Below are positions 8,285-17,387 of a stretch of 33,767 nt of DNA, in pieces; position 1 is the first letter of the stretch; the number at the start of each line of letters is the position of its first letter. The DNA comes from Lachnospiraceae bacterium (GTDB taxonomy: Bacteria; Bacillota; Clostridia; Lachnospirales; Lachnospiraceae). The notes under the pieces were generated by a model. It had not been told where the DNA came from, ran no database searches, and saw only the letters and a program-made list of their open reading frames with translations. Position numbers and translations under genes: made by a program. The stretch covers positions 1 to 33,767 of the forward strand of contig JAFTFD010000110.1 of NCBI GenBank assembly GCA_017449745.1, in the 5' to 3' direction.

Positions 8285-9238
8285 ATGAGACGCAGACTGG
8301 CTTCTGCAGTATTAGCAGCAGTGATGGCAATTGGTACGGCGGCATGCGGAGCGGCAGCGGTTCCTCCTGCGCAGGCTGGGGATACCACTTTGGAGACCGC
8401 CGGACAAGGTGCCGGACAAGGAAGCAATACGGCTTCAAATATGGCTTCAGAAGAGCCAAAAGAAACAGAAGCAATTGGTAGCATCGGAGAAACGGAAATA
8501 CAGGTCTTCATTGCCGCGAGCCTCAACACGGTCATGCAGAAGATCGCGGAGGAATTCAGCAAGGTTCATCCGGAAATAAAAATCGTCTTTAATGCGGACA
8601 GCTCCGGCAAGCTTCTCACCCAGATCGAAGAAGGCTATGCCTGCGACGTATTCTTCAGCGCCGCGCAGAAGCAGATGAATGCACTGGAGGAAGACGGTCT
8701 CCTGATCGAGGGGACCAGGGCCAACGTCCTGAACAACCAGCTCGTCGTAGTCACCAGAAAGGACAGCAGGACCGCCGTCACAGGACTCGCCGATCTGGAT
8801 AAGGCAGAGAGCATCGCCATGGCAGACGGCAGCGTTCCTGCGGGAAAATATACCAGACAAGCCTTGATGAATCTTGGAATCCTGGAGCAGTCGGAGGACG
8901 CCGCAGCCTATACAACAGAAGAGGTATCCGAAGCGCTTGGCGGCGTGGAGATCAGCGAGCAGAGCAACGTCAGCAAGGTCCTCACCGCCATCGTCGAGGC
9001 TTCCTGCGAGGTCGGCACGACCTATTATTCCGACATTTACGGATATGAGGAGGAACTGCAGATCCTGGAGGTCGTCCCCTATGATCTCACCGGAAATATC
9101 ATCTATCCCATCGCGCAGGTTGTAAATACAGAGGCGGATGAGGCAGAGGTACAGGCAGCCGCGGAATTTGTGGAGTACGTGCTCTCAGATGAAGCTGCCG
9201 CGATCCTGCAGTCCTATTATTTCGATACTGATTTATAA
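8285..9238 (+). CDS. modA: Molybdate ABC transporter substrate-binding lipoprotein ModA
   Basis: The 317-residue protein has a lipoprotein signal peptide (MRRR, hydrophobic stretch, 'IGTAAC' with lipid-modified Cys21) and a flexible Ala/Gly/Gln/Thr-rich linker to ~residue 72. The binding domain has typical ModA features: 'FIAASLNTVMQKIAEEF', 'NADSSGKLLTQIEEGYACDVFFSA' and 'SIAMADGSVPAGKYTRQAL'. It captures molybdate outside the membrane for ModBC. The start has GGGGTG 5 nt upstream and is 15 bp after the MOSC-MogA gene, so uptake is in the cofactor operon. A tungstate preference cannot be excluded from the sequence. Confidence 0.93.
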   Translation: MRRRLASAVLAAVMAIGTAACGAAAVPPAQAGDTTLETAGQGAGQGSNTASNMASEEPKETEAIGSIGETEIQVFIAASLNTVMQKIAEEFSKVHPEIKIVFNADSSGKLLTQIEEGYACDVFFSAAQKQMNALEEDGLLIEGTRANVLNNQLVVVTRKDSRTAVTGLADLDKAESIAMADGSVPAGKYTRQALMNLGILEQSEDAAAYTTEEVSEALGGVEISEQSNVSKVLTAIVEASCEVGTTYYSDIYGYEEELQILEVVPYDLTGNIIYPIAQVVNTEADEAEVQAAAEFVEYVLSDEAAAILQSYYFDTDL

Positions 9239-9257
9239 TTTGCCTTCGGCAGACTAT

Positions 9258-9502
9258 ATTCGCCAGGGGCAGGTGCCTGTGAAATCTGCTTGCGACTGAG
9301 TGCATAGATCCACTTCCTGACCCGCGAATATAGGGAGGGATACATGGCAGCGTTCACGCTGTCATGTAAAGCCGACTGTCTGAGCATACGCGCATCAGCG
9401 CGGATGCGAGTTTGGAGGCGGTGCCCGACAGGAATGAGAGGGGAAGGTTAGTGGATCTGCACGAAATAGCCGCAGATTTCACAGGCACCTGCCCTGGCAA
9501 AT
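9258..9502 (+). ncRNA. Unidentified 245-nt highly structured element between modA and modB
   Basis: The ends form a near-perfect inverted repeat (left arm 9258-9289, right arm 9472-9502, one inserted base and one mismatch). Inside it is a second helix 9300-9314 / 9450-9462 with a 2-nt bulge. The interior holds a 12-bp hairpin with a TTCA loop (9341-9352 / 9357-9368, one G-T pair), helix 9376-9380 / 9427-9431, and hairpin 9384-9393 / 9398-9407 with an ATCA loop. CTATATTCGC at 9254-9263 is also perfectly complementary to 9324-9333, which would compete with the outer helix. G-T pairs and nested branching suggest RNA rather than only DNA symmetry. A 35-codon frame (9344-9451, GGGAGGGA upstream) exists inside but looks incidental. 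A miniature inverted-repeat element is the main alternative. Confidence 0.6.
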
Positions 9503-9541: not shown

Positions 9542-10249
9542 ATGAATGACATCCTCGTAGTTCTTCAAAAACTGGACTGGAGCCCGCTGGCGATCTCCTT
9601 AAAGACCGGTGCGGCAGCGACAGTGATCTCTTTCTTTCTCGGGATCCTGGCGGCGCGGCGGATCATGTACTGCAAAACAGGATGGAAGGCCGTTCTTGAC
9701 GGGATCCTGACACTGCCGATGGTGCTGCCTCCGACAGTCGCGGGCTTTTTCCTGCTGCTGCTCTTCAGCAAGCGCCGTCTTTTCGGTATTTTTCTGTACG
9801 ACACGTTCGGGATCAAGGTCGTTCAGTCGTGGCTGGGGTGCATCATTGCCGCCACGGTGATCGCTTTCCCGCTTATGTACAGGAATGCGAGAGCGGCTTT
9901 TGAACTGGTGGATATCGACCTGATCCATGCAGGGAGGACACTTGGAATGTCGGATTTCAGGATCTTCCGGGAGATCGTACTGCCGACGGCAGGCCCCGGG
10001 ATCGTTTCCGGGACGATCCTCACCTTTGCGAGGGCGCTTGGAGAGTTTGGAGCAACCTCTATGCTGGCGGGGAACATACCCGGAAAAACGGCGACGATCT
10101 CACAGCGCATCGCGATGGTCATCCAGGACGGCGACTATGTGACAGCCGGGATCTGGGTGTTTGTGGTCATCCTGATCGCCTTTGCCGTGATCTTTCTGAT
10201 GAATATTGCGGCAGGGAAGGCTCTGAAAAAGATTCCGGACTGGCGGTAG
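9542..10249 (+). CDS. modB: Molybdate ABC transporter permease ModB
   Basis: The 235-residue membrane protein has about five or six hydrophobic segments. The EAA-type cytoplasmic loop that contacts the ATPase is 'AGRTLGMSDFRIFREIVLPTAGPGI', followed by the ModB signature 'TFARALGEFGATSMLAGN'. The N-terminal 'LDWSPLAISLKTGAAATVISFFLG' is typical of the family. It is separated from modA by 303 bp, unusually far for an ABC operon, because of the structured element. It is immediately followed by modC. The ATG at 9542 fits the family start, although the ribosome binding site is poor. Confidence 0.95.
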   Translation: MNDILVVLQKLDWSPLAISLKTGAAATVISFFLGILAARRIMYCKTGWKAVLDGILTLPMVLPPTVAGFFLLLLFSKRRLFGIFLYDTFGIKVVQSWLGCIIAATVIAFPLMYRNARAAFELVDIDLIHAGRTLGMSDFRIFREIVLPTAGPGIVSGTILTFARALGEFGATSMLAGNIPGKTATISQRIAMVIQDGDYVTAGIWVFVVILIAFAVIFLMNIAAGKALKKIPDWR

Positions 10250-10277
10250 ATTGGCAGCTGGCACCGTTGCAACAATT

Positions 10278-11351
10278 ATGGAATTTTCTGCAGAAATCAA
10301 AAAATCAATGGGCAGCTTTACCCTGGATATCCACTTCCGGACGGAGGCTAAACGGCTCAGTATACTGGGGGCTTCCGGCTCAGGGAAGAGCATGACGCTT
10401 AAGTCTATTGCCGGCATTGTGACTCCCGATGAGGGAGTGATCAGAGCCGGTGGAAGAGTGCTGTATGACAGTGCCCATGGAATCAATGTCAGGACACAGG
10501 ACAGAAGTGTCGGATATCTTTTTCAGAACTATGCCCTTTTTCCGACCATGTCGGTTGAAAAAAACATTGGCATCGGCGTCCGGGGCAGCAGGGCTGTGAG
10601 GAATGAGCGCGTGCGGGAGATGATCCGGCGCTTTCATCTGGAGGGACTCGAGGACAGGCTTCCCTCCCAGCTCTCCGGCGGACAGCAGCAGAGGACGGCG
10701 ATTGCCAGGATCATGGCATATTCCCCGGAGATCATATTGCTGGATGAACCTTTTTCGGCACTGGACATTTATCTAAAGGACCAGATGCAGCAGGAACTGC
10801 AGTATCAGCTGCGTGATTACGAGGGGACTGTGATCCTGGTCACCCATAGCAGGGACGAGGCCTACCGGTTCAGCGAGGACCTTATGATCGTCGATGAAGG
10901 CAGGATCGCGGCGCAGGGGAAAACAAAAGACGTGTTTTCAAAGCCCGGTACCGTTGCCGCCGCAAAAATATCCGGCTGTAAAAACATCAGCACCGCAAGA
11001 CGGATCGACGATCACACATTTGCGGCGGAGCAGTGGGGAACTACTCTCAGGACCTCTTTCATACTGCCTCAGGATTTCAATGCCGTCGGCTATCGGGCGC
11101 ACGAATTCCTGCCGGTATGGGGAGAGCGAAGAGAGAACTGCATTCCTTTCCTGCTCGAGTCTTCGGCGGAGCTTCAGTTTGAGAAGAATTATTACGTAAG
11201 ACCTGACCGGGAATCTTACACAAGAGAGGATATCCTCACCTGGTTCGTGCAGAGAGACAAGTGGCCGGTCCTCAGTGAAAAGGGGATGCCGGACTACCTG
11301 CAGTTTCAGGAAAAGGATCTCCTGTTTCTGCAGGCCGGATCGAAGGCATAA
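10278..11351 (+). CDS. modC: Molybdate ABC transporter ATP-binding protein ModC
   Basis: The 357-residue protein starts from the ATG at 10278. An in-frame TTG at 10251, immediately after modB, would add nine residues and cannot be ruled out. It has Walker A GASGSGKS (31-38), signature 'LSGGQQQRTAIARIMA', Walker B 'EIILLDEPFSALD' and H-loop 'LVTHSRDEAYRF', all intact. Residues ~235-357 replace the usual MOP/TOBE molybdate-sensing tandem with a divergent region ending 'YLQFQEKDLLFLQ'. Feedback by molybdate may therefore differ from E. coli ModC. It energises ModB in the cytoplasmic membrane. Confidence 0.9.
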   Translation: MEFSAEIKKSMGSFTLDIHFRTEAKRLSILGASGSGKSMTLKSIAGIVTPDEGVIRAGGRVLYDSAHGINVRTQDRSVGYLFQNYALFPTMSVEKNIGIGVRGSRAVRNERVREMIRRFHLEGLEDRLPSQLSGGQQQRTAIARIMAYSPEIILLDEPFSALDIYLKDQMQQELQYQLRDYEGTVILVTHSRDEAYRFSEDLMIVDEGRIAAQGKTKDVFSKPGTVAAAKISGCKNISTARRIDDHTFAAEQWGTTLRTSFILPQDFNAVGYRAHEFLPVWGERRENCIPFLLESSAELQFEKNYYVRPDRESYTREDILTWFVQRDKWPVLSEKGMPDYLQFQEKDLLFLQAGSKA

Positions 11352-17161: not shown

Positions 17162-17195
17162 GGCAGGAGACAGGGGACGGTTCTATGTCTCCTGA
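17162..17195 (+). repeat. REP-like dispersed repeat, copy 2
   Basis: It contains GGGGACGGTTC followed by TGTCTCCTG, the same core as at 3483-3534. The ends AGGAGACA (17165-17172) and TGTCTCCT (17186-17193) can pair. It abuts the stop codon of the hydroxylase large subunit. Confidence 0.75.
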
Positions 17196-17281
17196 CAACA
17201 GACTCGGCATCAGCCATGAAGCAGGGCTTGGTTCTCAGTCCCTGATATAGGCGGCAGAACATTATAAAATCTATTAGATCG

Positions 17282-17319
17282 AAAAAAAGGTGATCACGTT
17301 GATGTGATCACCTTTTTTT
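17282..17319. terminator. Bidirectional rho-independent terminator between convergent genes
   Basis: GGTGATCAC (17289-17297) pairs with GTGATCACC (17304-17312) around a 6-nt loop. Seven A residues precede the stem and seven T residues follow it, so it can terminate on both strands. It serves the Mo hydroxylase genes (plus) and the GH4 gene (minus). Confidence 0.93.
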
Positions 17320-17354
17320 AATATGACAAAAGATCTGCCCATTTATTTCACTTG

Positions 17355-17387
17355 AAGGCAGGAGACAGAGAACCGTCCCCTGTCTCC
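17355..17387 (-). repeat. REP-like dispersed repeat, copy 3 (inverted)
   Basis: The reverse complement carries the same GGGGACGGTTC...TGTCTCCTG core. Relative to the copy at 17162-17195 it is inverted, so the pair flanks about 160 bp containing the terminator. Confidence 0.75.

Follow-up and report, generated by a model that had tools for sequence, protein, structure and literature searches.

MITEs, including Correia elements and ERIC, are dispersed elements that encode no protein, carry terminal inverted repeats, and form transcript hairpins that RNases can cut. To our knowledge, a branched fold kept by compensating changes across dispersed copies is unusual, and bacterial interspersed repeats are mostly simpler hairpins. 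REPINs are described as dispersed intergenic inverted repeats with a predicted fold in single-stranded DNA or mRNA and with compensatory changes in their spacers (PMC3116915). The pneumococcal repeats BOX, RUP, and SPRITE are presented as noncoding repeats that have proliferated in a Gram-positive chromosome, with transcripts that fold strongly and a suggested effect on genes transcribed together with them (PMC3049150), and REPs are reported to lie mostly downstream of genes, plausibly acting as RNA (PMC3733652).

The segment compared here with these systems lies in a window of 33,767 nt from a Lachnospiraceae genome (assembly GCA_017449745.1, contig JAFTFD010000110.1), in which an initial annotation had placed it, as a folded element, between modA and modB. 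That annotation left two options—a mobile miniature element or a cis-regulatory RNA controlling modBC—and expected copies at many unrelated loci for the first and conservation beside mod genes with covarying helices for the second. With a probability of about one half, we read the segment as one copy of a non-autonomous small interspersed element of MITE- or REPIN-like behavior, whose information would lie in the fold of its single-stranded + strand; this reading includes RNA processing between modA and modB.

Fold and covariation of the modA–modB segment

The segment sits in an operon of modA-, modB-, and modC-like genes behind molybdenum-cofactor genes, the context given by the annotation. 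A modA-like binding protein gene (8285–9238, + strand; PF13531) leaves 19 nt between its stop codon and position 9258; downstream of the element follow a modB-like permease gene (9542–10249, + strand; PF00528) and a modC-like gene for the ATPase of the molybdate transporter (10251–11351). The fold energy of 9258–9502 is −137 kcal/mol on the + strand, against −82.8 ± 4.5 for 200 shuffles (z −11.9), and the complementary strand reaches z −11.6. Folded as DNA, the window strand and its complement give z −11.8 and −9.6. The arms, the inner helix, the 12-bp hairpin with its TTCA loop, and the hairpin with its ATCA loop are all present as annotated.

All parts of the fold are given on the + strand. 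The closing helix joins 9267–9289 to its perfect complement 9472–9494 and is kept in the relatives looked at; the inner long helix joins 9306–9314 to 9450–9458. Fold prediction and complementarity place the 12-bp TTCA hairpin at 9341–9368 (9341–9352 with 9357–9368). It is followed by a conserved, largely unpaired stretch, AAGCCGACTGTCTGAG (9369–9384), with many invariant columns across 19 copies, within which TGTcTGAG is retained in a 71-member consensus. The second hairpin (9384–9407) has the loop ATCA, replaced in some relatives by other loops such as TTCA, and on its 3′ side lies CGAGTTTGGAGG (9407–9418), conserved in the 19-copy alignment and the 71-member consensus. Blocks that are conserved and largely unpaired include CGAGTT and GCGAA besides TGTcTGAG and the hairpin loop ATCA, the last of which varies in some. 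Outside the closing helix, copy-specific outer arms at 9258–9267 and 9494–9502 pair with one C-A mismatch and one bulged G; 9258–9268 pairs at 10 of 11 positions with 9492–9502.

The annotated limits, 9258–9502, are both reached by the palindrome, whereas the conserved branched-fold element, common to 19 aligned copies of this genome (hereafter own copies), covers only ~226 nt (9268–9493): identity between these copies is 0.65–0.80 just inside this edge and 0.25–0.43 just outside. The annotation had also seen two competing folds. The 10-nt complement between 9254–9263 and 9324–9333 exists, but the other 18 aligned copies lack it, with a longest complement of 3 to 5 nt at the equivalent positions; it looks like a peculiarity of the window copy, and we rejected the competing-folds idea because the complement is not common to the others. 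A structured element of no catalogued class, as the annotation held, agrees with the Rfam search it had suggested: no family reached its curated gathering score in the window. Other loci tried against Rfam gave weak sub-threshold matches only; these, such as RF04159, which scored 51 bits where the cut-off is 168, were taken as a long-hairpin artefact. Judged by Rfam and a search of open-licence papers, the family is undescribed.

Covariation was scored on a MAFFT alignment of the 19 own copies that took no account of structure; the scored fold had been predicted from that alignment, a choice in its favor. There, 95.5% of cells pair and the covariation score is 0.513, and compensatory changes of the kind that the annotation had asked for in homologues are found as double changes at 64 of 85 pairs. 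None of 500 shuffles was as good (means 80.1% paired, 34.4 pairs, score 0.205), and sliding the partner by 1–3 columns lowers the paired cells to 31–42%. Six of the eight helices show covariation, with double changes at 26 of 31 pairs in the closing helix (helix 1), 11 of 18 in the inner long helix (helix 3), 11 of 12 in the TTCA hairpin (helix 5), and 7 of 10 in the second hairpin (helix 8). A second alignment, of 71 members from many genomes aligned to a model and therefore leaning to structure, has double changes in 53 of 56 pairs and 91.6% of cells paired. Judging from these alignments, the predicted shape, more than its letters, is kept by evolution in related gut bacteria.

The 73 pairs that are predicted on folding either strand by itself contain 48 G-U against 16 A-C, and 25 against 5 in the core; this excess points to the + strand as the folding strand. 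The 71-member set gives 88 against 44 (own copies 33 against 6, others 55 against 38), a bias that is weaker outside this genome. Wobble cells are few (48 of 1384), a low content that would also fit selection on single-stranded DNA or templated correction from arm to arm. It is more likely that the selected fold acts as RNA than as single-stranded DNA.

Copies, neighbors, and head-to-head pairs

Blastn of the segment against its own genome returned 24 rows: the window itself, two arm-to-arm matches of its own, and 21 other places. A covariance model built from the 19 own copies (R1), which matches the window copy at 9292–9470 with 185 bits, finds 25 matches in this genome, the window copy included, some cut by contig ends. 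These many dispersed copies without coding capacity, together with the terminal inverted repeats formed by the closing helix, are traits of MITEs. In the 71-member alignment, the nearest relative of every own copy (17 of 17) lies in the same genome; the element has been amplified within this species.

R1 matches 29 of 62 genus genomes, and a second model, built from the 71 members (R2), matches 32 of 62 (own included) with 1 to 42 matches per genome; both scans scored 43 candidates per genome under stricter filters than the scan of family genomes. There, R2 matches at least 3 of 299 genomes (own included), a floor, since 9 candidates were scored per genome. Blastn of the segment gave no match in 60 other genomes although the models later did so in many, so it misses diverged members; the same limit applies to its negative result against 50,697 phage and 72,556 plasmid records. 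A phage or plasmid origin was rejected on this blastn result and because the sole pattern match in viral_contigs fails the model.

A DNA pattern scan of genome_contigs gave at least 111 stretches, of which 80 were listed and 71 of those match R2 at E up to 0.01; the listed stretches, two family-genome loci, and one viral locus (no match) together hold at least 96 matches, some at places already seen. Per genome there are 7 in Murimonas intestini, 3 in Blautia massiliensis, 5 in Candidatus Limivivens, 19 in the Eubacteriales MAG S27M_St_58, 2 in UBA1721, 1 in a "Fibrobacter" MAG, and 16 in Lachnospiraceae RGIG2300, by coordinates the same genome as our G065. The reach of this per-genome search is limited: the genome of locus L113, which has matching loci in the pattern-scan set, gave 0. 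Among the stretches listed, 7 of 9 loci titled as other phyla fail R2, a Derxia locus matches weakly and in part (36 bits), and the "Fibrobacter" MAG locus gives a strong one (131 bits) that is possibly a misplaced contig. One contig of Lachnospiraceae RGIG4309, a genome from roe deer duodenum, matches a contig of the own genome over 2.8 kb at 99.8% identity; because RGIG4309 has no other match of the element, the contig may be misplaced there.

Neighboring genes are diverse: 110 of 114 listed neighbor proteins, from this and other genomes, were scanned and hold 132 Pfam families, the commonest of which, MatE, occurs in 5. A search for modB returned 24 hits, spread over 22 of 62 genus genomes (own included), and R2, applied to 1.5 kb on either side where the contig allows, matches the own locus and none of the 23 others. 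Among those 23, modA was located beside modB in 18, with gaps from overlap to 761 nt that hold other sequence or none. The window copy is therefore lineage-specific, and it is the sole one among 19 single own copies tabulated (of 25) with a secure same-strand downstream gene. Three congeneric modA–modB junctions (L214 in G010, L217 in G027, L220 in G011) have long gaps, a different, hairpin-rich one of 442 nt in one and gaps of 639 and 761 nt in the other two; the 639-nt gap apparently holds what we take to be a molybdopterin-binding (Mop-like) reading frame.

These neighbors bear on the switch option of the annotation, also in the form of a riboswitch-like RNA controlling modBC in response to molybdate or a cofactor. 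Its structure and its sense orientation between modA and modB would suit such an RNA, but 24 other matches in the own genome, the diverse neighbors, and the 23 modB loci of the genus without a copy make it very improbable, and the mod-specific switch was rejected on the last two grounds. The mobile option fares better, with many copies at unrelated loci. What the annotation had set apart as marks of alternatives occur together here—copies at unrelated loci and covarying helices—and conservation next to mod genes is the part that did not hold.

At every locus read in which two matches lie within 1 kb of each other, minus comes before plus, with 5′ ends facing. We tabulated 33 such head-to-head pairs (median core distance 241 nt, range 98–579). 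At least 11 genus genomes have a pair: G000 (the own genome), G001, G003, G013, G024, G025, G027, G029, G062, G065, and G081. The one other two-match locus, L141, has two minus matches ~1.5 kb apart. In the 71-member alignment the nearest relative is the own partner for only 3 of 30 pair members and another sequence for the remaining 27, so that pair members usually appear to be two different subtypes. Six whole units inspected in the Eubacteriales MAG have a variable center, and their long outer arms, though different from unit to unit, still pair; the unit in one MAG spans ~0.8 kb without a long reading frame. No closed ORF in the 33 units exceeds 140 aa (median 87; simple shuffles 76), which implies no sizeable protein gene. 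A tentative wider reading, to which we give well short of even odds, is a previously undescribed protein-less Lachnospiraceae mobile unit of ~0.8 kb that joins two distinct large structured RNAs head to head. Its fold would be a mobility or maintenance signal for a host or element protein acting in trans, and single copies such as that between modA and modB would be half-units turned into local RNA-processing sites.

The copies might alternatively belong to an independent class of functional noncoding RNA, trans-acting or part of a ribonucleoprotein, with many copies, its own promoter, and incidental dispersal. The unpaired blocks TGTCTGAG, CGAGTT, and GCGAA, the covariation of most helices, and the wobble bias to one strand all fit, and the window copy bears on its 5′ edge a promoter-like site whose last base is 9260, TTTATA-17-TATATT (9 of 12). 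The number of such sites in the region (3 found against 2.1 expected) is no more than chance level, however, and the 66 strands of the 33 pair centers show no sigma-70 enrichment (7.53 observed against 7.37 expected); on both counts we rejected an own promoter. Several own copies also start directly behind a stop codon or a REP, and a range of 0 to 42 matches per genome within one genus would be odd for a housekeeping RNA. We consider this alternative unlikely.

Edges, flanks, and candidate movers

Among the own copies, identity drops at one edge, which reads GGCAGG...CCTGCC in most and encloses ~226 nt. At the next 8 positions outside it, 14–18 of 19 copies pair within themselves, against 0.40–0.51 across copies; this pairing within copies means that each carries its own outer palindrome. 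That may reflect a long closing helix with free outer sequence, a flank copied into the arms, or insertion with a preference for palindromes. One explanation would make the fold a mutational by-product, in which the complementarity of the arms is maintained mostly through templated correction, or through outward extension by fold-back copying at replication, rather than by selection on RNA. The copy-specific palindromes of ~8 bp or more outside the conserved edge, REP-like flanks that match from one side of a copy to the other, and the few wobble pairs speak for it; the branched core with its conserved unpaired blocks, and a one-strand wobble bias that is strongest in that core, speak against it and leave it decidedly improbable.

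Inverted REP-like flanks, with 18–20 of 20 bases matching beyond the arm, border 7 of the 19 own copies (L008, L009, L011, L013, L014, L015, and L021). The other 12, the window copy included, score 11–15 of 20, and a mismatched-copy control has a median of 12–13; for these 12 the two inverted REPs with a spacer that characterize a REPIN are not found. One of these REP types, GGGGACGGTTCTCTGTC, occurs 41 times forward and 37 times in reverse in the genome at up to 2 mismatches, where a reversed control occurs twice in each direction. It also borders a gene of the own genome that we call RAYT-like, a label assigned here from a Y1_Tnp match and gene length.

Several REP-related structures were seen beside these. 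At 17166–17387 the window holds a REPIN, GGAGACAGGGGACGGTTCTATGTCTCC and its inverted partner with ~170 bp between them, including the terminator-like hairpin AAAAAAAGGTGATCACGTTGATGTGATCACCTTTTTTT. Three REPINs of the own genome (L265, L266, and L267, on C220, C301, and C309) carry an ~80-nt hairpin insert, GAAGGCAGA...GCCGCTGTGGCGCGAA...TCTGCCTTC; an insert of the same type, a second structured passenger, also lies upstream of the RAYT-like gene in L241. L273 contains a short hairpin with CTGCGCGAAGCAGCCGC, resembling the 3′ internal loop of the element, and the 5′ flank of L038 (own genome, C152) shows REP, linker, and the first element-arm bases in tandem partial duplication.

Genes for Y1_Tnp were found in 44 of 62 genus genomes, and the element occurs in 28 of these 44 against 4 of 18 others (Fisher P = 0.005, kinship ignored). 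No copy lies in any of 20 stretches surrounding Y1 transposase genes; the one close neighborhood found is outside those 20, where an IS200-like transposase fragment at a contig end (G003:C31:40068-40779, L276) lies ~360 bp from a copy on the same strand. A four-contig congener (G068) has 38 Y1_Tnp matches and no element match. For RVT_1 there is no association with the element (14 of 27 against 18 of 35, P = 1.0), on which ground we rejected a reverse-transcriptase mover; in these incomplete drafts 18 of 32 carrier genomes, including the 42-match G062, have no RVT_1 match, unlike what a retron or group II intron would call for. Searches of RVT_1 and Y1_Tnp found no ends common to an autonomous transposon. 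No transposition event or exact empty site was seen among the examined copies, and the target duplications considered in the initial annotation did not appear when flanks were inspected by eye, in a set that contained no exact empty site.

The REP flanks and the Y1 association are what a giant REPIN at the DNA level would lead one to expect: folded single-stranded DNA recognized at replication, as in REPINs or IS200/IS605, and spread by RAYT proteins. Compensatory changes are reported for REPIN spacers in the account cited (PMC3116915), and the window strand folds well as DNA. Yet 12 of 19 own copies, that of the window among them, fail the flank test, no Y1_Tnp was found in G065 with its 16 element matches, and six REP-type words are absent within 500 bp of the element at six pair loci of four RAYT-bearing congeners (G003, G013, G025, and G081). 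We regard this as rather unlikely.

Orientation and terminators were also considered as guides to placement. As tabulated, the 3′ end faces the stop codon of an opposing gene in 41 of 53 single copies, and in 37 of 49 (P = 0.0005) without the duplicate L159 (= L076) and the partnered L088, L113, and L154. The rule rests on the own genome (17 of 19); it applies to 20 of 30 single copies elsewhere (P = 0.10) and to 34 of 58 copies in pairs (P = 0.24, with L106 = L079 and L120 = L080 counted twice). The ORFs were called by a simple method, and L030, one of the own cases, is in doubt; because its significance rests on the own genome, the rule was dropped as a general one. In L082, L085, and L086 the outer arm of the element is apparently the 3′ half of a terminator-like hairpin formed with outside sequence, on the facing strand, and on inspection this edge may end the transcript of the neighboring gene. 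A scan for terminators in other genomes gave 9 of 78 3′ flanks toward the element and 4 of 78 away from it, and 11 and 10 of 78 5′ flanks, against 1.2–1.8 in shuffles; own copies gave 2 or 3 of 20 in each class. Insertion beside the terminators of facing genes, hinted at by a few flanks, was set aside because the systematic scan shows no clear side preference.

Proposed behavior and relation to known systems

As a small interspersed element without autonomy, the element would spread through a protein supplied in trans that recognizes the folded strand, and it would settle near gene ends. Where it is co-transcribed in the sense direction, as between modA and modB, the closing helix of ~30 bp could be cut by a double-strand-specific RNase or could slow transcription. 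The modA mRNA would then end in a protective hairpin, uncoupled from modBC, and the binding protein would be made in excess over the membrane parts. The compensatory changes in REPIN spacers, the folded BOX and RUP transcripts, and the REPs downstream of genes cited above show that such an effect is possible in general. The copy at this junction probably acts as an mRNA-processing or insulating hairpin, which suggests that one insertion could split an operon post-transcriptionally. Large structured RNAs and miniature mobile elements, two subjects usually treated apart, meet in this element. As a case in which shape would be the selected trait, it is open to test in gut carriers that include the named isolates Murimonas intestini and Blautia massiliensis.

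Compared with large structured Rfam RNAs, the element is similar in size and degree of covariation, and it differs in having no gathering-score match in the window. With MITEs such as Correia elements and ERIC it shares dispersal, the absence of a protein, terminal inverted repeats, and long hairpins; unlike them, it has variable outer ends and a branched conserved core, and no target duplication was seen. BOX, RUP, and SPRITE are likewise noncoding repeats that have multiplied in a Gram-positive chromosome and have folded transcripts (PMC3049150); they belong to another host and have another layout, BOX being a modular boxA-B-C. REPINs and their RAYT transposases, as the cited account describes them (PMC3116915), come close in dispersal as inverted repeats and in compensatory changes; the element, too, has no protein of its own, and some own copies share the REPs and a linker of the genome. 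Set against that same account, it departs from REPINs in that 12 of 19 own copies are without REP-like flanks, its subtypes stand in head-to-head pairs, none of the 20 Y1 stretches holds a copy, and its ~226-nt core is branched and carries unpaired blocks that are conserved.
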